This document shows positions 1,480 to 38,105 of a stretch of DNA of 38,325 bases, one piece after another (within the stretch, counting starts at the first letter, position 1; the number at the start of each line of letters is the position of its first letter). The stretch is from Candidatus Binatia bacterium (lineage in GTDB: Bacteria > Desulfobacterota > Binatia > Bin18). Below the pieces are notes generated by a model that worked only from the letters and a program-made list of their open reading frames with translations, was not told the DNA's origin and did not search any database. A program made the translations under genes and the position numbers. The stretch spans positions 1 to 38,325 of the forward strand of contig JAJDZM010000123.1 of the NCBI GenBank assembly GCA_022824615.1, read 5' to 3'.

Positions 1480-1481
1480 AA

Positions 1482-1502
1482 AGAGTAAATGTATCCTCCA
1501 GT
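1482..1502. repeat. Family A half-element in the recR leader
   Basis: AAAGAGTAAATGTATCCTCCA matches one arm of the family A palindrome with two changes (consensus AAAGAGTAAACGTGTCC). It begins 2 bp from the recR start codon and contains the only Shine-Dalgarno-like GGAGG (minus strand) before recR. Confidence 0.6.
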
Positions 1503-6389: not shown

Positions 6390-6450
6390 CGGGGTCTATG
6401 GGGTCTTGACCCAACAGACCCAATGGACTCAATAGACTCGACAGACTCAT
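6390..6450. repeat. Family B repeat array between nuoD and nuoE
   Basis: About seven 9-bp units (CGGGGTCTA, TGGGGTCTT, then GACCCAA, CAGACCCAA, TGGACTCAA, TAGACTCGA, CAGACTCAT) start 3 bp after the nuoD stop. The GGGTC units at the left can pair with the GACCC units at the right, so a hairpin would form in the nuo transcript. nuoE starts 20 bp downstream. Confidence 0.8.
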
Positions 6451-6470
6451 AAAAGTGCTGAGAGCAGATT

Positions 6471-8577: not shown

Positions 8578-8685
8578 AAAGAGTAGATGTATGCGTCTGT
8601 TGAGTCCTTTGCGTCTGTTGAGTCCTCTGAGTCCGACCCAACAGACGCAACACACCCAACACACCCCATAGACCCAATACTCTTT
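8578..8685. repeat. Family B array framed by family A ends, between nuoJ and nuoK
   Basis: The array at 8591-8677 has about ten 9-bp units (ATGCGTCTG, TTGAGTCCT, TTGCGTCTG, TTGAGTCCT, CTGAGTCC, then GACCCAA, CAGACGCAA, CACACCCAA, CACACCCCA, TAGACCCAA). It is flanked by perfect 8-bp inverted ends AAAGAGTA (8578-8585) and TACTCTTT (8678-8685), the outermost bases of family A elements. The structure looks like a family A palindrome whose centre has been replaced by, or expanded into, a family B array. Confidence 0.75.
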
Positions 8686-11033: not shown

Positions 11034-12613
11034 GCCTCATTGTTTTCATTCCGCTGCTGACGGCGTTCTTCCTGTTGGCCCTCAATAAGAATGCGGTGGA
11101 GTTGGTCCGTCGAACCGCCTTTGGCGCGTCGCTGCTCACGTTCTTCATCTCGCTCGGCCTGTTCACCGGCTTTGATAGTGAGACCGCCGCGTTTCAATTC
11201 GTTGAGCGCTATGCCTGGATTAGCGAATTCGGGATCGAATACTATGTTGGTGTCGATGGCATCAGCCTGTTCCTCGTCCTGCTGACGACGTTTCTTTCGC
11301 CGCTGGTGATTCTGTCCACCTGGAGCAGCGTTGAACATCGGGTCAGGGAGTATCTCTTTTTCTTTCTCATCCTGGAAACCGGCATGATCGGGACCTTTGT
11401 CGCGGTTGATGTCTTTCTCTTCTACGTCTTCTGGGAAGTCATGCTGATTCCCATGTACTTCTTGATTGGCGTCTGGGGTGGCGAACGGCGCATTTACGCC
11501 GCGCTCAAATTCCTGCTCTACACCATGGTCGGCAGTCTCTTGATGCTGGTGGCCATCCTGTATCTCGCCTATCTGCATAATACTCAGCACGGTACGCTCA
11601 CTTTTGACCTGCTGCGTCTGTACACCCTTGAGATTCCGGTCAGCGCCCAAATGTGGTTGTTCGCCGCATTTGCGCTCTCCTTTGCCATCAAGGTTCCGCT
11701 CTTCCCCTTTCATACCTGGCTGCCGGACGCGCACGTCGAAGCCCCGACCGGGGGGTCCGTCATCCTGGCCGGCGTGCTCCTCAAAATGGGCACCTATGGC
11801 TTTCTGCGTTTTGCCTTGCCGCTTTTCCCCGATGCCGCCCATGCCGCGGTGCCGCTGATTATGGCGCTCTCAGTGGTTGGTATCGTGTATGGAGCGCTGG
11901 TGGCTCTGGTGCAGCCGGATATGAAAAAGTTGGTTGCCTACTCGTCCGTCAGCCACCTCGGCTTTGTCATGCTGGGGTTGTTTGCGTTCAACATACAGGG
12001 GATCGAAGGCGCGCTGTATCAGATGCTCGGCCATGGCCTCTCAACCGGGGCTCTCTTCCTGTTGGTCGGCGTGGTGTATGAGCGCCGCCATACGCGGCTT
12101 ATCAGCGAGTATGGCGGCTTATGGAAACAACTGCCGCTCTTTGCCTCGGTCTTTCTGATTACCATGCTGTCTTCGATAGGCCTGCCGGGCTTGAACGGAT
12201 TTGTTGGGGAGTTCCTCATCCTCTTGGGGACCTTTCAGGCGAACACGCTGGTCGGTGCGATAGCGGTTTCCGGCGTTGTTCTGGGTGCCGTCTATATGCT
12301 GCGTCTGTATCAGCGGGTTGTTTTCGGACCGCTGACGCAGCCGGAGAACGCCAAGCTGACCGACCTGTCCCGCCGCGAGCTAGCCATATTCGTTCCGTTG
12401 ATCGCCCTGATGTTGCTGATGGGCCTCTACCCCAAGCCCTTCCTCAGCCGGATGGAAAAGTCGGTGGAAGCCACCTTGGCGCGGATTCATCAAACCGCCG
12501 ATAATAAGTCGGTAGAGTCGGTAGAGTCCATTGGGTCAGTTGAGTCATTGGGTCGGTTGAGTCTTGACCCAACGGACCCCAAAGACCCAATAGACCTAAA
12601 AGGGGCGAGTTGA
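11027..12613 (+). CDS. nuoM: NADH-quinone oxidoreductase subunit M
   Basis: NuoM is the central antiporter-like proton pump. The 528 residues contain FYVFWEVMLIPMYFLIG (TM5 glutamate), PLFPFHTWLPDAHVEAPTGG and the following SVILAGVLLKMGTYG. GTG at 11027 was chosen as start: GGGGT lies about 8 bp upstream, and it overlaps the nuoL stop in the usual coupled fashion. A TTG at 10994 is the alternative. The last roughly 35 residues are not family sequence. They are Ser-Val-Glu, Ile-Gly-Ser and Asp-Pro-Thr triplets encoded by a family B repeat that has extended the C terminus. Confidence 0.95.
   Translation: MVSLIVFIPLLTAFFLLALNKNAVELVRRTAFGASLLTFFISLGLFTGFDSETAAFQFVERYAWISEFGIEYYVGVDGISLFLVLLTTFLSPLVILSTWSSVEHRVREYLFFFLILETGMIGTFVAVDVFLFYVFWEVMLIPMYFLIGVWGGERRIYAALKFLLYTMVGSLLMLVAILYLAYLHNTQHGTLTFDLLRLYTLEIPVSAQMWLFAAFALSFAIKVPLFPFHTWLPDAHVEAPTGGSVILAGVLLKMGTYGFLRFALPLFPDAAHAAVPLIMALSVVGIVYGALVALVQPDMKKLVAYSSVSHLGFVMLGLFAFNIQGIEGALYQMLGHGLSTGALFLLVGVVYERRHTRLISEYGGLWKQLPLFASVFLITMLSSIGLPGLNGFVGEFLILLGTFQANTLVGAIAVSGVVLGAVYMLRLYQRVVFGPLTQPENAKLTDLSRRELAIFVPLIALMLLMGLYPKPFLSRMEKSVEATLARIHQTADNKSVESVESIGSVESLGRLSLDPTDPKDPIDLKGAS
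12513..12599. repeat. Family B repeat array at the nuoM/nuoN junction
   Basis: Ten units (TAGAGTCGG, TAGAGTCCA, TTGGGTCAG, TTGAGTCAT, TGGGTCGG, TTGAGTCTT, then GACCCAA, CGGACCCCA, AAGACCCAA, TAGACCTAA) run through the last codons of nuoM. Left units TTGGGTC complement right units GACCCAA, so a long stem can form just before nuoN. Confidence 0.85.
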
Positions 12614-23005: not shown

Positions 23006-23120
23006 ACTCCCTCCTTCTTTCCGGCCGGCTGGTCGGGTAGCTCCGACACAGCAGAGTCAGACTCTAGTAGGCTGCTGGTGTCACGTCAAGCTTGACTCCG
23101 GCCCAGGCACGCAGTACTCG

Positions 23121-23172
23121 AAGAGGAAACGTGTCCTCCAATTGATACTCGCTGTTGACACGTTTACTCTTT
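23121..23172. repeat. Family A palindromic element upstream of the DUF4911 gene
   Basis: The arms AAGAGGAAACGTGTCC (23121-23136) and TGACACGTTTACTCTTT (23156-23172) frame a 19-nt centre. The right arm ends 11 bp before the start codon of the DUF4911 gene, so the hairpin lies in its leader. Confidence 0.8.
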
Positions 23173-26626: not shown

Positions 26627-26679
26627 AAAGAGTAAACGTGTCCAGCATTGTATGTCTAGTGGAGGACACGTTTACTCTT
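26627..26679. repeat. Family A palindromic element between tatB and the HDAC-like gene
   Basis: AAAGAGTAAACGTGTCC (26627-26643) and GGACACGTTTACTCTT (26664-26679) are perfect complements around a 20-nt centre. The centre AGCATTGTATGTCTAGTGGA is the inverse of that in the copy at 33825, so the loop as well as the arms is conserved. Confidence 0.88.
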
Positions 26680-26690
26680 CGTAGTATAAT
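26663..26690 (+). promoter_or_regulatory. Candidate promoter of the HDAC-like gene, partly inside a family A arm
   Basis: TATAAT at 26685-26690 is a perfect -10. AGGACA (26663-26668, 4/6) lies 16 bp upstream and comes from the right arm of the family A element. If real, the repeat supplies the -35 of the downstream gene. Confidence 0.45.
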
Positions 26691-29845: not shown

Positions 29846-31117
29846 CTAGTCCTGTGCCGACCGCTCGGCATGAATCTCTGCGTGCGAGGCGATGACGCGC
29901 TCTGCTTTGAGGTGAGCGATTTGCTGGTCGGAATAGTTGAACAGGCGGCGCAGAACGCTATCCGTATGCTCACCCAGTAGCGGGCCTGGGGCGGCTACGT
30001 GGCCTGGTGTCTTCGAGAGCTTGAATGGCGGTCCGTCGAGTATGATGTCCTCTGTCCCTTCGACTCCGCTCAGGACAGGCTTCCCGTTTTCCTGGGCCGG
30101 CAACTGCGCCCAATAGCCCCGAGCCCGCAGTTGGGGGTCGCGGTCCAAATCTTCCCCGTTGGCAACCACGCCAGCGGCGATACCGGCTTCTTGCAGGCAG
30201 GACATGACTTCTTCTGCCGTATGCTGTTGTGTCCAGGCTTCAATATACCCGTCCAAAGCGTCTTGATGTTGGAGACGGTCTGCAAGGCTGGCAAAGCGTG
30301 CCTCGCGCGTCCAGGCCGGCTGCCCCAAGACACGGCACAGACTCTGCCATTCTGCGTCGGTGAAGACGGCAACCGCGCACCAGCGGTCGTCGCCCTTGCA
30401 GCGATACACCCCGTGCGGAGCCGCCGGGGCTTCCTGGGAACGATTGCCGACCGGCTCACTAGGCGTCTGATTATTCAGAATGTCGAGCAAGCCCGGTCCG
30501 ACCAGGCTGGAAATTGCCTCAAACTGCGCGAGGTCAACGAATTGCCCCTGGCCGGTTTGTTTGCGATGCCACAGGGCCATCAATACGGCCAGCGCGCCGC
30601 TATAGCCGCCGGTCATGTCCGCGTACGAATAGCCCCAGCCGGCCGGCTCGTGACCGGGATGACGCATCTGGAGCGTATAGCCGGACAAGGCCTGGAGCGT
30701 TGGTCCATAGCTGACATAATCCTTGTGCGGTCCGGTATGCCCGAAGCCGGACATGGAGACCGCGATAATATCGGGCTTGATTTTTTTGAGGCTGTCGTAG
30801 TCGAGCCCCCAGTTGCGCATGACCCGTGCGCTGAAATTATCGACCACGACATCCGATATAGCCGCGAGTTTTTGGGCGATCTCAATCCCCCGCGGATCGG
30901 CCATATTGACAACCGTACTCTCCTTGCCTCGGTGCAGATTGCCGGAAAAGCCGCCACGCCGCGTCCCCAGATCGAGCGTATCGCGTCGCTCGATTTTAAT
31001 GACCTCGGCCCCCTGGTCGGCCAGGATACGGACCGCGACCGGACCGGCGACCACCCAAGTGAAATCAAGAATGCGGATGCCTTCGAGCGCGCGCCGGCTT
31101 TTTTGTGAGGGGGCCAT
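29846..31117 (-). CDS. CaiB/BaiF family CoA-transferase with a repeat-coded insertion
   Basis: The 423 residues contain FTWVVAGPVAVRILADQGAE, SMSGFGHTGPHKDYVSYGP and TGQGQFVDLAQFEA, with the catalytic D195. Residues 346-355 (KPVLSGVEGT) are encoded by a family D repeat (30056-30080) in a loop between normal family segments; this peptide is typical of such repeat insertions. The protein resembles the gene at 20563 more than those at 21800 and 34022. It starts 8 bp after terC and is followed after 9 bp by the hydrolase. Confidence 0.9.
   Translation of the reverse strand: MAPSQKSRRALEGIRILDFTWVVAGPVAVRILADQGAEVIKIERRDTLDLGTRRGGFSGNLHRGKESTVVNMADPRGIEIAQKLAAISDVVVDNFSARVMRNWGLDYDSLKKIKPDIIAVSMSGFGHTGPHKDYVSYGPTLQALSGYTLQMRHPGHEPAGWGYSYADMTGGYSGALAVLMALWHRKQTGQGQFVDLAQFEAISSLVGPGLLDILNNQTPSEPVGNRSQEAPAAPHGVYRCKGDDRWCAVAVFTDAEWQSLCRVLGQPAWTREARFASLADRLQHQDALDGYIEAWTQQHTAEEVMSCLQEAGIAAGVVANGEDLDRDPQLRARGYWAQLPAQENGKPVLSGVEGTEDIILDGPPFKLSKTPGHVAAPGPLLGEHTDSVLRRLFNYSDQQIAHLKAERVIASHAEIHAERSAQD
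30056..30080. repeat. Family D repeat inside a CoA-transferase gene
   Basis: CCCTTCGACTCCGCTCAGGA plus CAGGC matches a second copy at 36905-36929 except for the two bases after GACT. It is translated on the minus strand as part of KPVLSGVEGT. Confidence 0.75.
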
Positions 31118-33078: not shown

Positions 33079-33960
33079 CTAGCTGTCCTTTTGCTCGGGC
33101 TCAGCCTGCCCGAGCTGAAACGTGACCAGCTCCTTTTGCTCCACAATTTTCTCGCTCATCAGATCGGTGGTGGTACTTTTTACCATGCCGACGCCGGGGG
33201 CGTACCATTCTGTATAGTGAAAACCGCGTCCGCTCGTCCGGACAAGTTTGGTCTCCATCCGCAGACAGGCGGTGTACGCCCCGGCCGCGACCACCACCGG
33301 CTTCTGCTCCGGTCCAAAACGGTAGAGCGTCGAGAGCTGAGCCTCCTCGCCCCATTCGCCGACCCAGACCTCTTGCCACTCCCCACTTGGGGGTGCGCTC
33401 CGGCTGGCGAAGTCGAGCGGCAGGACGGGGGCAAACGATTCGCCTATGGTCCCGGTTGAAATCAAGATCGTGCGCTCATTATTGCCGTAGACATGATTGG
33501 TATTTCGGACCAGGTAGCCCTCATGGGGGTAGTATAAGACCGGCAGGATATCCTTCGGCGCAGTTGGCGTGACACCGGGGTGGGCTTCATCCAGTACCAT
33601 AGCGTTAAGCTGAAGACGGGGGATATGTTGATGTCCCTTCACTTCCACGCTGAGTTCTGCCTCGGTCTCATACCACGCGCCGGACAGCCGATAGACCCAG
33701 CGGCTGCCGAGCCTGTGGGGGAAGAGGGTAGCGACTTGTTGCCAAGCGCTAAAAAGAGGAGCCGTATCCCGCATCTGCCGGTCGAGGGAGGACACGGTTC
33801 CTCTTTCAGGAGAAGCGGTCTCAGAAGAGGAAACGTGTCCTTCACTAGACATGCGATGCTGGACACGTTTACTCTTTTCTCCGGTATGCAGGGTATCTGT
33901 TCGAATGGAAATCAGACTGGCCAGGATGAGAAGACCGACGATCACGGGTATCGGCTTCAC
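33079..33960 (-). CDS. Exported protein of unknown function with repeat-coded insertion
   Basis: The 293-residue product begins with a signal-like helix (MKPIPVIVGLLILASLISI) without a lipobox. The mature part (about 65-285) is strand-rich (HRLGSRWVYRLSGAWYETEA, EWYAPGVGMVKSTT), resembling small secreted or outer-surface proteins, but I cannot name it. Residues 29-46 come from a full family A element and about 52-57 from a half copy; both follow the signal region. The insertion stays in frame and has no stop. Whether the protein tolerates it is inferred from the intact frame. Confidence 0.7.
   Translation of the reverse strand: MKPIPVIVGLLILASLISIRTDTLHTGEKSKRVQHRMSSEGHVSSSETASPERGTVSSLDRQMRDTAPLFSAWQQVATLFPHRLGSRWVYRLSGAWYETEAELSVEVKGHQHIPRLQLNAMVLDEAHPGVTPTAPKDILPVLYYPHEGYLVRNTNHVYGNNERTILISTGTIGESFAPVLPLDFASRSAPPSGEWQEVWVGEWGEEAQLSTLYRFGPEQKPVVVAAGAYTACLRMETKLVRTSGRGFHYTEWYAPGVGMVKSTTTDLMSEKIVEQKELVTFQLGQAEPEQKDS
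33790..33806. repeat. Family A half-element inside the exported-protein gene
   Basis: GGACACGGTTCCTCTTT matches one arm of the palindrome with an extra G. It is 18 bp from the full copy at 33825 and is translated as ERGTVS. Confidence 0.65.
33825..33877. repeat. Family A palindromic element inside the exported-protein gene
   Basis: AAGAGGAAACGTGTCC (33825-33840) and GGACACGTTTACTCTTT (33861-33877) frame the 20-nt centre TTCACTAGACATGCGATGCT. The first A of the element (minus strand) is the third base of codon 28, and the element is read through to residue 46. Confidence 0.88.
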
Positions 33961-34021
33961 TTTGATAGAATCCTTTCGTTTTGTATTGCCCCTGACTATT
34001 CAGACCATGGGGTATTCTAGC

Positions 34022-35218
34022 TCAAATCACGCCAGCCTGCTTCAAGGCTGAGAGGCGGTCTGCCTCAAGCCCGAGCTCGTTGCCATAGACCTCGGTGTTA
34101 TGCTCGCCCAGGAGGGGCGGACGGCGGGCAATGCGCCATGGCGTCGCTGTAAAGTGAATGGGACCGCCAGGGTATCGCACCGTGCGGCCTAACTCCGGAT
34201 GCTCGATCGTGGAGAAAAAACCTCGGTCGTTCAACTGGGGATCGTCCACCAAGGCTTCGGGGGGTCGGACCATGGCATACGGAATGCGCCGGAGTTGGGC
34301 GCCTTCCATGAGTTCGGCCACGCTGTAGTCTTTGGCCCAGTCATCCAGGATATCAAACAGGTGTTCGGCGTGCTCCCTTCGATAGACCAGGTCTTCCCAG
34401 CGTGTGTCCTCAAGGTCCTGAGCTTTCCCGTCGCCCTTGACCCATTCGACCAGCGAGGTCCAATCCCCTAACGAGCAGTGCATGACGTAACCGTCGCGAC
34501 ACCGAGCCACGCGGAAATAGCGACTCCAGTGCAGGCTGCCGCGCCGACTCTCAATGCCCAGCCCCTGATGATAAAACGGCGCGATATGTTCCACCGCCCC
34601 GGCGACGGCTTCCTGTATGCTGACGTCCACCCACTGGCCCTCGCCGAGGCTGTCTCGCGTCAACAGGGCCAATAGCGTACCGATCGCGGCAAAAAAGGCG
34701 GCGCTATGGTAGGCTTGCAGGCCCATAGCGTGCAGCGGCGGCTCATCGGGAAATCCGTTGGTCCAGATCATGCCGCCAAGGGCCTCGGCTACCATGTCCG
34801 AGGAGCGGTAGGAGCGGTAGGGTCCGGTCTGTCCAAAAGGCGTAATCGAGGTGAGCACCAGATTTGGGTTGATCTGCTTCAGTTCGTCATAGCCCAGGCC
34901 GAGTTGGGCGAGAGTCCCTGGTGCGGCTGACTCGACCAACACGTCCGCCTTTGCTGCCAACTGCTTGGCCAACTCCTGACCGGCTGGCTGGTTCAGATCA
35001 AGGGTGATGCCCCGTTTGCTGGTATTATAGAACCAGAAGAGCAGGCTCCGCTCGGGGTGGGGCTGGTCATCGAGAAACGGACCAATGCGACGCGTGGCAT
35101 CCCCCGCCGGTGGCTCGATCTTGATGACATCCGCCCCCATATCGCCAAAGAGTTTGGCGCACATGGCTCCTTTGAGGTCGGTCAGGTCAAGAATCCGCAG
35201 TCCAGCCAAGGCAGTCAT
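34022..35218 (-). CDS. CaiB/BaiF family CoA-transferase
   Basis: The 398 residues from MTALAGLRILDL contain LKGAMCAKLFGDMGADVIKI, SITPFGQTGPYRSYRSSDMV, and GEGQWVDVSIQEA, with the catalytic aspartate D198, followed by RRPPLLGEHNTEVYG. By these motifs it groups with the gene at 21800, although that one has Glu at this position. The start at 35218 was chosen by family; GAGGGAG lies 12 bp upstream. It follows the VWA gene by 22 bp and may be co-transcribed with it. Substrate unknown. Confidence 0.92.
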   Translation of the reverse strand: MTALAGLRILDLTDLKGAMCAKLFGDMGADVIKIEPPAGDATRRIGPFLDDQPHPERSLLFWFYNTSKRGITLDLNQPAGQELAKQLAAKADVLVESAAPGTLAQLGLGYDELKQINPNLVLTSITPFGQTGPYRSYRSSDMVAEALGGMIWTNGFPDEPPLHAMGLQAYHSAAFFAAIGTLLALLTRDSLGEGQWVDVSIQEAVAGAVEHIAPFYHQGLGIESRRGSLHWSRYFRVARCRDGYVMHCSLGDWTSLVEWVKGDGKAQDLEDTRWEDLVYRREHAEHLFDILDDWAKDYSVAELMEGAQLRRIPYAMVRPPEALVDDPQLNDRGFFSTIEHPELGRTVRYPGGPIHFTATPWRIARRPPLLGEHNTEVYGNELGLEADRLSALKQAGVI

Positions 35219-35240
35219 ATCGAAGCGCTCCCTCTCCTCG

Positions 35241-36890
35241 CTACAATTTGACAAACACGTCTCTGGCCTCTGTGCTGGTCAGCTGAGAGACGGTCGTAAT
35301 TTTATCGCTGAAAGGTGTGAGCGAACTCAGTGAACTGGTACCAACATCGATCAGAATCGAGAAGAGCGAGAAGCCGAGCGCGTTCTTTTCTGTGGCAAAG
35401 CGTTCGGCCCAGTTTGCGTGGACCCGACATTCGCCGTCGGTAATAAACACGATATCACCCCGCTGGAAACGCGATTCCCGAAAGAGGGAACGTGTCCTTC
35501 CTTGACGGACAGATGCGGGACACGTTCCCTCTTTGAGACAGCCCAGGGCCGCGTCAAGGGGCTTTTCAAAATCGGTCCCACCGCCGGGGAAGTATTCGGC
35601 CAACTCCAGAACCTTGTCCATGTCCGCTTCATAGCGTACCCGCGTATTGAGATCGACGCTGTACAGGGGCGCGTCCGCGGATGAGAAACAAATCGCCCGA
35701 AACCGGCGCCGTTCGCGCCGGGCAATCTCAAGAAGCGTGAGCGTGAGCGCTTTTGCCCAGACTTCTTTGTCTCCCTGCATGGATGAGCTGCCGTCGAGGC
35801 AGACGATAAGCGGGCCTTTGCCCTGGGCCTCCACCCCGCGCAGGTCATACTGTAAAAGCTCGTTATCCACAAAGCGTCGGATAAAGTCCTGGCGTAACAG
35901 GGGGTGCTGCAAACTCAGCAACTCGTGAGGGAGCAAACGGCTGAGTTCCGCGCCGAGGCCCACCTCGAAGACCTCGTCATTGGTGCGTTCAAAATTTTTC
36001 CGCCGCAGGGCGAGCGCCTGGTGCTTCATTCGCCCGACCATGGTGGCGAGCTTTTTCAGCTTGTCGTTTCCAGCCAGCCGCTTCCCCAGTTCAATCTGGC
36101 GGCCGGGAGAAGATTGGTGGCCTCCACCCACGGCCAGCCCCCACGACTCGGCCTCCTGGGTTGCATCATCGAGATTTTGTGCAACCGTAATTGCTTCTTT
36201 GAGAAAACGATTACGGGTTTCCTGCTGGACACGGGACAGGTCCTGGTTGAGCTGTCTGGCCAGGCGTTGCAGACGGGTGTTTTCCGCCCGCGCCTGGCTG
36301 GCCATACGCTCGGCCGTGTGTTCGAGCATCTCCTTGGCTTCTTGTGAGACGTCCTCCGTAGCGTCCGCTTGTTCAGTGAGTTCTTTTGCATTCTGGGCTT
36401 CGTCGATACGTTCCTGTACCAGCGCTTCTTGCTTCTCTACATTCCAGACATCGAGTAAGTCACGCCGGGTCAATGTCTTTTCAGATTTCAGCAGACGGAG
36501 GGCGCCCTCGCCTAAGAGCACGGTGGCCAGTCCGGCCTGCCCTTCATCCAGGACAGTGGCTTCTCGCAGCAGGTTTGCCAACTCGCCGCTATGCAGCGCG
36601 CTGAGGAGTTCCCGGTTCACCGCCGCGCTGGGGAGTACGTCGTCCGCTCTGAAAAAAACGACATTATATTTGAAGAGCGCGCAAAAAAGGTCGTGCAGAA
36701 GTGCCCGAAAGTGCGGCAGGAGAGAAGCTCCACTCTCTTCAAGGCGCTGTAGAGAGGGAGAGGCGGCGCGGATCTGCTCATAGACCGCCCGGTCATACGA
36801 GTCGCTCTCAACCCAATGCACATTATCCGGCAGAGGGGCTGGGGGAGGGAAGCTGAACCGGGACTTTTTCTTGGCGCGTCGGCGAGGCAT
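35241..36890 (-). CDS. VWA-domain protein, partner of MoxR/RavA ATPase (ViaA-like)
   Basis: The 549 residues have a helical N-terminal part with a long coiled-coil-like stretch (about 155-245) and a C-terminal von Willebrand factor A domain. The domain has the full metal site: D366-x-S368-x-S370 in LDGSSSM, T439 in GGGTDF and D485 in FITDGE. By analogy with RavA-ViaA it acts with the adjacent MoxR ATPase as a chaperone or complex-assembly pair, perhaps on respiratory complexes. Residues 453-470 are exactly one 54-bp family A element, inserted before the IVFITDGE strand. The gene starts 42 bp after the ATPase. Confidence 0.9.
   Translation of the reverse strand: MPRRRAKKKSRFSFPPPAPLPDNVHWVESDSYDRAVYEQIRAASPSLQRLEESGASLLPHFRALLHDLFCALFKYNVVFFRADDVLPSAAVNRELLSALHSGELANLLREATVLDEGQAGLATVLLGEGALRLLKSEKTLTRRDLLDVWNVEKQEALVQERIDEAQNAKELTEQADATEDVSQEAKEMLEHTAERMASQARAENTRLQRLARQLNQDLSRVQQETRNRFLKEAITVAQNLDDATQEAESWGLAVGGGHQSSPGRQIELGKRLAGNDKLKKLATMVGRMKHQALALRRKNFERTNDEVFEVGLGAELSRLLPHELLSLQHPLLRQDFIRRFVDNELLQYDLRGVEAQGKGPLIVCLDGSSSMQGDKEVWAKALTLTLLEIARRERRRFRAICFSSADAPLYSVDLNTRVRYEADMDKVLELAEYFPGGGTDFEKPLDAALGCLKEGTCPASVRQGRTRSLFRESRFQRGDIVFITDGECRVHANWAERFATEKNALGFSLFSILIDVGTSSLSSLTPFSDKITTVSQLTSTEARDVFVKL
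35481..35534. repeat. Family A palindromic element inside the VWA gene
   Basis: AAAGAGGGAACGTGTCC (35481-35497) and GGACACGTTCCCTCTTT (35518-35534) are perfect complements. The 54-bp unit starts at the first base of codon 453 and supplies 18 residues. Both arms share the change GGGAACG, which keeps the stem paired. Confidence 0.9.
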
Positions 36891-36904
36891 GATGATCTTT
36901 CGGA

Positions 36905-36929
36905 CCCTTCGACTGGGCTCAGGACAGGC
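36905..36929. repeat. Family D repeat between the ATPase and VWA genes
   Basis: CCCTTCGACTGGGCTCAGGA plus CAGGC is the second copy of the repeat at 30056-30080, differing at two bases. It fills most of the 42-bp gap. Confidence 0.7.
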
Positions 36930-36932
36930 AGC

Positions 36933-38105
36933 TTAGAGCCTGGCTAATAACTGGCCCTGGATCTCCTGAATTTCCTGTTTTGCCCTTTCAACCTTATCGA
37001 TGGCGCGCCCCACCTCCTGGACGTGTTGGTGGATTTCCTCCACCTTGGTCAGAATATTCCGAATCTTGGTATGCGCCTCAATGATCGCGCGGGCGCGCTG
37101 CTCCGCGTCCTCCCAGGGTCGCTCGGCATAGTCGCGCAATTCCCTGGTCTGAAACAGGAGCTCCTGCACCTCATCCTCATAGCCATGAATCAAGCCATGG
37201 ATCACGGTATGCACGGCGGCTTGCTCTGACGGCTCCTTCCACAAAACGTGTTCAAGAAAGAACACATCGGTTTCGGTGACGCTACGGCGTCCATCCAGAC
37301 AGGCCACGGCTTGCAGCAGCCCGACACTCTGGCGGTAGCGCCGGTCGGACGCCAGAATATCTTGTGTCCGCAGCTCTCGGCGCACCTCGGCGATGACCCC
37401 AAGAACAGTGTCGGGGACGGTGACGGCTTGCGCCTCGGCCTGTAATTGACGCAGTTCGTCGAGGGTCAACGTCGTGCGTTCCGCCGGTCGCCGCGCCTGA
37501 AGAGGAAACGTGTCCTTCTTCGACGGGCGGATGCGGGATACGTTTCCTCTTTGAAGCATGTGCAGAAAGCGAAAGTCCTCCTGGATATAATCCACGGCGA
37601 AGCGCAGCAGAAAGCGGTCGTACAGCGCCAGGAGTTCATCGTCCTCGGGAAGTTCATTGCTGGCTCCGAAGAGCGTCAGGAGCGGCACCGCCGCTGCCGC
37701 TTTGCCATTATGAAATATTCGCTCGTTGATAATGCTGAGGATCGCATTCAAGATCGAGGAGCTGGATTTGAAGACTTCGTCCAAAAAGGCGATATGCGCC
37801 TCGGGCAGTTTGTTGTCCGTGACCCGACGATAATCGTCGGCTTCGAGCGCTTTGAGGCTGACCGCTCCAAAGAGTTCTTCCGGTGTCGTGAATTTTGTCA
37901 GCAACCACTGAAAATAGCGCGCCCCGGTAATACGGCGACACAACTCGTCCGCCAGCATCGACTTGGCCGTCCCCGGAGGGCCGATAATCAGGACGTGCTG
38001 TGAGGCCAATAAGGCCGCCAGCGCGCCGTCGATGAGGGCGTGGCGTTCGAGAAAACGGTGTTGGAGTTCTGCGCGGATTTTTTGCAGTTTTTCTTGCGGA
38101 GTCAC
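36933..38105 (-). CDS. MoxR-family AAA+ ATPase (RavA-like)
   Basis: The 390 residues contain Walker A GPPGTAKS (42-49), FTTPEELFGAVSLKAL, Walker B AFLDEVFKS (D109, E110), sensor I FGASNELPED (N150) and the arginine finger LYDRFLLRF. A lid domain and a C-terminal coiled coil (about 345-388) follow. The length and coil fit the RavA branch, which works with ViaA-like VWA partners; such a gene follows directly. Residues 185-202 are a family A element inserted between the ATPase core and the lid, after YIQEDFRFLHML. The gap upstream holds a 6-bp hairpin (38123-38139). Confidence 0.93.
   Translation of the reverse strand: MTPQEKLQKIRAELQHRFLERHALIDGALAALLASQHVLIIGPPGTAKSMLADELCRRITGARYFQWLLTKFTTPEELFGAVSLKALEADDYRRVTDNKLPEAHIAFLDEVFKSSSSILNAILSIINERIFHNGKAAAAVPLLTLFGASNELPEDDELLALYDRFLLRFAVDYIQEDFRFLHMLQRGNVSRIRPSKKDTFPLQARRPAERTTLTLDELRQLQAEAQAVTVPDTVLGVIAEVRRELRTQDILASDRRYRQSVGLLQAVACLDGRRSVTETDVFFLEHVLWKEPSEQAAVHTVIHGLIHGYEDEVQELLFQTRELRDYAERPWEDAEQRARAIIEAHTKIRNILTKVEEIHQHVQEVGRAIDKVERAKQEIQEIQGQLLARL
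37500..37552. repeat. Family A palindromic element inside the MoxR/RavA gene
   Basis: AAGAGGAAACGTGTCC (37500-37515) and GGATACGTTTCCTCTTT (37536-37552) form the arms, with one mismatch. The centre TTCTTCGACGGGCGGATGCG resembles that at 35498. The element enters at the second base of codon 185 and ends in codon 202. Confidence 0.88.

Follow-up and report, generated by a model that had tools for sequence, protein, structure and literature searches.

Hairpin units at the locus

The DNA examined here, which we call the window, is the whole 38,325-nt contig JAJDZM010000123.1 from assembly GCA_022824615.1 of a Candidatus Binatia bacterium, and our subject is a family of short hairpin elements that lie both within and outside its protein-coding genes. 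Three genes, all on the reverse strand, carry in-gene copies. A MoxR/RavA-type AAA ATPase (36,933–38,105; bpMoxR match at 3.9e-58) contains a 54-nt unit at 37,499–37,552 that adds residues ~185–202, and a VWA-domain protein (35,241–36,890; VWA_2 match at 1.4e-06) contains another at 35,481–35,534 that adds residues ~453–470, inside the VWA_2 match at 361–487. An exported protein of unknown family, with no match in Pfam (33,079–33,960), holds two, the first at 33,824–33,877 (residues ~29–46) and a more decayed second one at 33,753–33,806 (residues ~52–69); the second lies in reverse orientation and the other three are forward. A first-pass annotation had listed the three forward copies, and these proved to be exact 54-nt units. 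On the coding strand the first base of AAAGAG falls at codon positions 3, 1 and 2 in exported-protein copy 1, VWA and MoxR, as had been stated, and the base after it at positions 1, 2 and 3; the reading frames also bear out the absence of a stop codon in any of them. That annotation missed the reverse copy, in which the first base of AAAGAG stands at codon position 2, again with no stop.

The hairpin itself measures 52–53 nt, with arms of 16–17 bp and a loop of ~20 nt. The consensus of the 52-nt form reads AAGAG(T/G)AAACGTGTCC, then ~20 nt, then GGACACGTTT(A/C)CTCTT, and one further base at each end belongs to the inserted unit, which is typically 54 nt long. These end bases follow the form purine-AAGAG...CTCTT-pyrimidine in 121 of 133 copies in the window's own genome. 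Four window hairpins fold better than shuffled sequences, with z from -2.1 to -7.3.

Copy number and host range

A strict two-arm pattern hit the window's own genome (G000) 38 times forward and 34 times in reverse, against 0 and 0 for a reversed-pattern control, which argues that the family is not a product of chance. A covariance model trained on 40 copies returned 148 rows at 134 distinct places there; scoring took in 150 of 2,559 first-look candidates, so the genome has at least 134 such places. One of them (C211:7308) was not fetched, and the analyses below rest on the remaining 133 copies.

Matches occur in 10 of 58 related genomes, comprising 7/7 of the own genus, 2/2 of the sister genus, 0/7 of the others of the family and 1/42 of the class, the last a borderline match (E 0.009). 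When 395 genomes of the phylum were sampled, with 14 candidates scored per genome, the only genome matched was the window's own, and blastn with the element consensus as query found nothing in phage and plasmid collections. Most of the near relatives that carry a name are metagenome-assembled genomes (MAGs) of Candidatus Binatia, including OX638322.1, OY282457.1 and MPMI01000023.1, so the host does differ from Rickettsia, as had been proposed; several of these MAGs, we presume, come from sponges. In G006, a congener assembled as a single 4.62-Mb contig with 115 arm matches, the 100 arms listed mark 70 element sites, 48 of them in the stretch from 2.0 to 3.0 Mb; the remaining 15 arms lie beyond 2.88 Mb.

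Filled and empty orthologues

The clearest evidence of insertion comes from orthologues of the host genes. In protein alignments the 18-residue insert of MoxR is present in 3 of 14 sequences (G000, G004 and G006) and absent from 11, and that of the VWA protein is present in six of 15, all from genomes of the genus and all with an open frame, and absent from G006 and from eight sequences of other genera. A CaiB-type CoA-transferase gene (34,022–35,254, reverse strand) is empty in the window and carries a 54-nt unit after residue ~71 in G004 and G006, that is, in 2 of 11 sequences. For all three proteins the sequences without the insert include other genera, and DNA alignments of the orthologues show clean 54-bp, or 18-codon, gaps at the empty sites. 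Each unit had been predicted to add about 18 residues, and where the DNA repeat is missing the aligned MoxR and VWA orthologues are short by exactly 18; none of them lacks the repeat and still shares the residues. In the exported protein, copy 1 is present in G000, G003 and G004 and absent from G005, while copy 2 is present in G000 and G005 and absent from G003 and G004. The G004 orthologue of this protein (L083) is shortened downstream, at ~99 codons. That separate MAGs have inserts in common speaks against assembly error.

A surface or linker position had been expected for each insert, and for MoxR a linker is plausible. One MoxR homologue (L126) has three extra residues beside the insert site, and RavA, a homologue of solved structure, has six extra residues some nine residues beyond it, which makes a linker position reasonable as judged from alignment. 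A fold prediction for MoxR from 13 sequences was dropped in favour of alignments, as its confidence score (pLDDT) stayed below 50 for residues 62–207.

Insertion length and target site

We compared empty and filled alleles across the seven genus genomes (G000 to G006) and outgroups. Among 86 well-aligned comparisons, which are not independent because loci recur across genomes, the net insertion equals the element length plus two in 75, such that 52-mers give 54, 51-mers give 53 and 49-mers give 51; a further 90 poorly aligned comparisons and two of another size were set aside. Counted by locus, 15 of 26 show length plus two and nothing else. A target-site duplication (TSD) was looked for in these comparisons and in the flanks of the hairpin units and was not found. 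Direct repeats of at least 2 nt show no excess over shuffles in the flanks, and we therefore regard the two extra bases as part of the unit. We rejected the alternative of a 2-bp TSD, as the dinucleotides on the two sides differ.

The target is weakly symmetric. Around the 133 insertions it reads not-A, G, C, Y, N, N | N, N, R, G, C, not-T, with the strongest positions being G at -5 (80/133, p 1.7e-15) and C at +5 (67/133, p 5e-8), and with A at -6 in only four copies and T at +6 in only five. Sixteen genus loci with an empty allele and a net length of plus two have C at +5 in 12, not-A at -6 in all 16 and not-T at +6 in 15.

Copies inside genes

By a codon model and tests of open reading frames (ORFs), 25 of the 133 copies lie in-frame in genes, 105 lie elsewhere, and three, for which reading through was doubtful, were kept out of the 25; this count answers the earlier call for a census of coding and non-coding copies. 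An open frame was required for the in-gene class. All three phases are indeed read: the first A of AAGAG stands at codon position 1 in 12 of the 25 in-gene copies, at position 2 in two and at position 3 in 11. Divided by strand, this gives F1 8, F3 10, R1 4, R2 2 and R3 1, and the F strand is thus read by 18 of 25 (p 0.007 against the open-frame expectation, 0.043 against one half). Among mismatches G.T exceeds A.C by 84 to 56 (p 0.022), and selection on one strand was considered.

Of the 25 in-gene copies 21 have a length divisible by three, as do 65 of the 105 elsewhere (Fisher p 0.037). The stronger proposition that only frame-keeping lengths occur was rejected, as 40 of the 105 copies outside the in-gene class are not multiples of three. 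G at position 6, a change that abolishes the TAA present in the T type, is found in 16/25 in-gene copies and 40/105 elsewhere (p 0.025). A unit of 54 nt makes 18 codons, with roughly one frame in two open, and copies that land where a gene tolerates them therefore leave it readable. The 21 in-gene copies outside the window fall in 18 ORFs, of which 16 have Pfam matches and three, of MiaB type, MetH type and YfiO type, hold two copies each. In five ORFs the unit lies within a single domain match: an FAD oxidoreductase, a cobalamin adenosyltransferase, a MiaB-type enzyme (UPF0004), MltA and MnmE. Judging from the sequence, in-gene units are probably translated into 18 extra amino acids.

Changes after insertion

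Once in place, the two arms appear to change together. Across 40 own-genome copies, paired arm changes occupy 14 cells against 4.8 in shuffles. The comparison of orthologous filled loci covered 24 of 25 and excluded any pair that was unequal in length, had an inverted loop or differed at more than 10 places in the arms. Both sides had changed at 10 arm positions against 3.07 expected, the highest of 5000 permutations being 8; six of these 10 are fully compensated, and 28 positions changed on one side. The VWA unit illustrates this, with paired arms differing by species as GGGAAC/GTTCCC, GGAACC/GGTTCC and GGGACC/GGTCCC, and with decayed pairs in G003 and G005. The loop is inverted in G006 at two of the 25 loci. 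Arm homogenisation and spacer inversion are known products of template switching (PMC8604942), and the two changes seen here correspond to the two outcomes named there. At one further site, L174:2001 and its G003 orthologue, the loops are very different (distance 10, with another copy at 3), through either replacement or independent gain.

Patchy presence

The genus tree is ((G006,(G001,G002)),(G004,(G000,(G003,G005)))), and set against it the filled genomes at MoxR (G000, G004, G006) and CaiB (G004, G006) call for precise removal of the unit, for more than one gain at a single base, or for transfer. The same three accounts apply to the family at large, and we make no single choice for every site. 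A unit at 26,627–26,680 (hairpin 26,628–26,679; reverse; not classed as in-gene) is filled in G000 to G004 and empty in G005, G006 differing by a longer stretch. Copy distances are divided. In 62 filled pairs the orthologue is closer than any other copy in 36, tied in 10 and farther in 16. Descent is favoured for MoxR between G000 and G006 (1 against 5) and at G002:32081 (3 against 5), a locus where G002 and G003 alone are filled, and MoxR between G000 and G004 is a tie (5, 5). At CaiB (11 against 3), at the window hairpin 23,121–23,171 (4 against 3) and at G001:479510 (6 against 5) the orthologue is farther than another copy, such that some sites may have been filled independently at the very same base.

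Short-tract recombination between species, in place of exact loss or repeated gain, would need no excision enzyme to produce the exact empty alleles, and it finds its best case at the hairpin at 23,121, where the presence split recurs at 11 of 264 biallelic flank sites and the three empty genomes cluster in the local tree, so that a single event is enough. MoxR offers one supporting single-nucleotide polymorphism, 16 bp away. Yet few flank sites share the split at MoxR (4/399), CaiB (2/448, the nearest 627 bp away) and G002:32081 (1/335, at 331 bp), and filled genomes are not grouped in the local trees at MoxR and CaiB. As a general account of the patchiness we hold recombination to be rather doubtful.

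Other features of the window

Two further units are not classed as in-gene: one of 53 nt (51+2) at 23,120–23,172 on the forward strand, the hairpin discussed above, whose G006 orthologue has one of the two inverted loops, and one of 55 nt (53+2) at 1,582–1,636 on the reverse strand (hairpin 1,583–1,635). A single-arm remnant lies at 1,480–1,496 (forward). A 22-nt remnant at 806–827 (strand unassigned; arm match 812–828) consists of arms alone, its tip deleted, and adjoins a tRNA gene at 729–801. Comparable loop-less derivatives of 20–22 nt occur in G006 at 2368026, 2306477 and 2410947 (L269, L272 and L277), all three as one identical 20-nt sequence. Units of 9 bp (GAGTC.../GACCC...) form inverted arrays, which may represent another family of hairpin-forming repeats, at 2,454–2,549, 6,392–6,458, 8,593–8,685 and 12,506–12,607. 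A motif of ~30 bp, TTCGACT..GCTCAGGACAGGC, is common to 30,051–30,080 and 36,900–36,929.

Discussion

We suggest that these units are a non-autonomous mobile hairpin of the Candidatus Binatia lineage that inserts without TSD, lies in-frame within genes and is kept by template switching, and we give this reading a probability of roughly 0.6. The comparisons show that the 54-nt unit arrived by insertion, without duplicating its target, at sites of weak two-fold symmetry. It may be moved by a putative transposase or recombinase that treats the two halves of the target alike and has possibly been lost already, and the same putative enzyme may also remove the unit exactly. After fixation, replication template-switching between the arms would keep the palindrome near perfect and would sometimes flip the loop. 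A hairpin kept in this way could persist as a DNA structure in coding sequence with no need of a benefit to the protein.

Several observations weigh against this reading. Eleven of the 86 comparisons and 11 of the 26 loci have another or a mixed net length (by locus +1 in four, +3 in two, +4 in one, +5 in two, -5 in one and mixed in one). G at -5 is found in only six of the 16 empty alleles. Two features of the 133 copies are unexplained: mirrored target positions avoid complementarity, and junction-adjacent bases are identical in 56 copies against 33 expected (GG 23, CC 20; GC only 1). A 1-bp TSD as the source of these identical bases was rejected, for the empty VWA allele of G006 already reads GG at the junction. 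The length of four in-gene copies is not divisible by three, the codon model behind the in-gene class is crude, with wrong-frame scores overlapping true-frame ones, and the arm test took the most divergent pair per locus. Models for Y1_Tnp, IS110, RVT_1 and Resolvase match nothing in G006, and these families do not track the element across genomes; no mobiliser was found, since a copy-rich genome in a single contig thus lacks all four of these families, each of them associated with movement without duplication. Nor does G006 hold a longer element with the same ends among 100 of its 115 arms listed, the other 15 having one mismatch each and, by list order, lying beyond 2.88 Mb. A candidate long element of 1.86 kb between arms at 2729386 and 2731226 was rejected as a 50-nt copy and a lone arm; by eye, the ORFs between them resemble a MoxR-type ATPase and a hydrolase.

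Among other accounts, the unit might not be translated at all, with ribosomes bypassing the hairpin or the insert being removed from RNA or protein. Bypass has precedents in mitochondrial byps elements and T4 gene 60, and it would accord with the better-than-shuffled folding of the window hairpins and with units inside conserved domains such as those of MnmE and cobalamin adenosyltransferase. It needs no multiple of three, yet such lengths are enriched in genes, and it needs no open frame, yet all six filled VWA orthologues are open, a weak point by itself given that openness is part of the in-gene definition. We consider this account highly improbable. Somewhat less so, and still unlikely, is a miniature inverted-repeat transposable element (MITE) of an ordinary DDE insertion sequence, the parent having since disappeared. 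It is common for element families to be mobilised in trans, transposases typically choose dyad targets, and the inverted ends, high copy number and dyad target all fit; the lack of a TSD does not, nor does the failure to find a parent with these ends among the 100 G006 arms listed, the DDE families themselves not having been searched for. A repetitive extragenic palindromic (REP)-like element moved by a REP-associated tyrosine transposase (RAYT), of the Y1 (HUH) type, would likewise be a small hairpin without TSD, and REPs also occur inside genes and in palindromic targets (PMC3733652). Against it, the flanks of the 133 copies have no GTAG or CGTC foot, and Y1_Tnp is absent from five of nine element-bearing genomes (G002, G004–G007) while present in all seven genomes of the family that lack the element; we give a REP-like origin very little credence.

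Comparison with known systems places the hairpin nearest to the Rickettsia palindromic elements (RPEs), and the parallel drawn with these at the outset holds in behaviour. RPEs measure 105–146 bp, with 12-bp terminal repeats and a TSD entered as '?' (PMC2229807), and lie in-frame inside conserved Rickettsia protein genes as well as between genes (PMC2229807, PMC10969869). The Binatia unit, on present sequence data, is also palindromic and in-frame inside conserved genes. It differs in being 54 nt long and mostly stem, with no TSD and with a dyad target, and by size and host we do not file it as an RPE. Wolbachia is named as having palindromic elements as well. REPs are 20–40 bp long with GTAG or CGTC tags, the GTAG ones associated with RAYTs (PMC3733652); they too are short high-copy hairpins, some within genes and some in palindromic targets, whereas the Binatia unit is longer, has neither foot and has no consistent Y1 transposase. 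MITEs such as NEMIS, ERIC and RUP share the inverted-repeat, non-autonomous character, and some are fused in-frame to ORFs, but PMC2229807 lists these three with TSDs, in contrast to the Binatia unit with its lack of both a TSD and a parent among the G006 arms listed. Template switching in yeast genes provides arm homogenisation and spacer inversion within coding DNA (PMC8604942), there for short inverted repeats in general and here for one repeated insertion family. The coding palindromes of Nematomorpha mitochondria are perfect inverted repeats kept inside translated genes, in which both arms encode conserved residues (PMC6649704); they do not appear to be one inserted family. The first-pass annotation knew of no description of the Binatia family, and we found none in the open-licence papers searched.

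The Binatia hairpin works like an RPE but is shorter and belongs to another phylum. More tentatively, and with less confidence than the reading above, it may be minimal mobile DNA of a new class, in which a hairpin of 54 nt is joined bluntly into a symmetric target and exactly removed by a putative enzyme without TSD, and for which a codon-sized length and open frames would make genes a usable habitat while template switching would keep the unit perfect even as it is translated. Protein-coding palindromes are best known from Rickettsia, where their way of moving is unknown. Here, filled and empty alleles at 26 loci, most between genus genomes that are 89–96% identical, make insertion, loss, target choice and the effect on the host protein directly testable. 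Concerted arms and loop flips point to a DNA-level process able to rewrite several residues at once, which may be mistaken for selection. Lodged in functional genes with their frames kept, and probably translated, the element makes a natural experiment in the reshaping of proteins by parasitic DNA.

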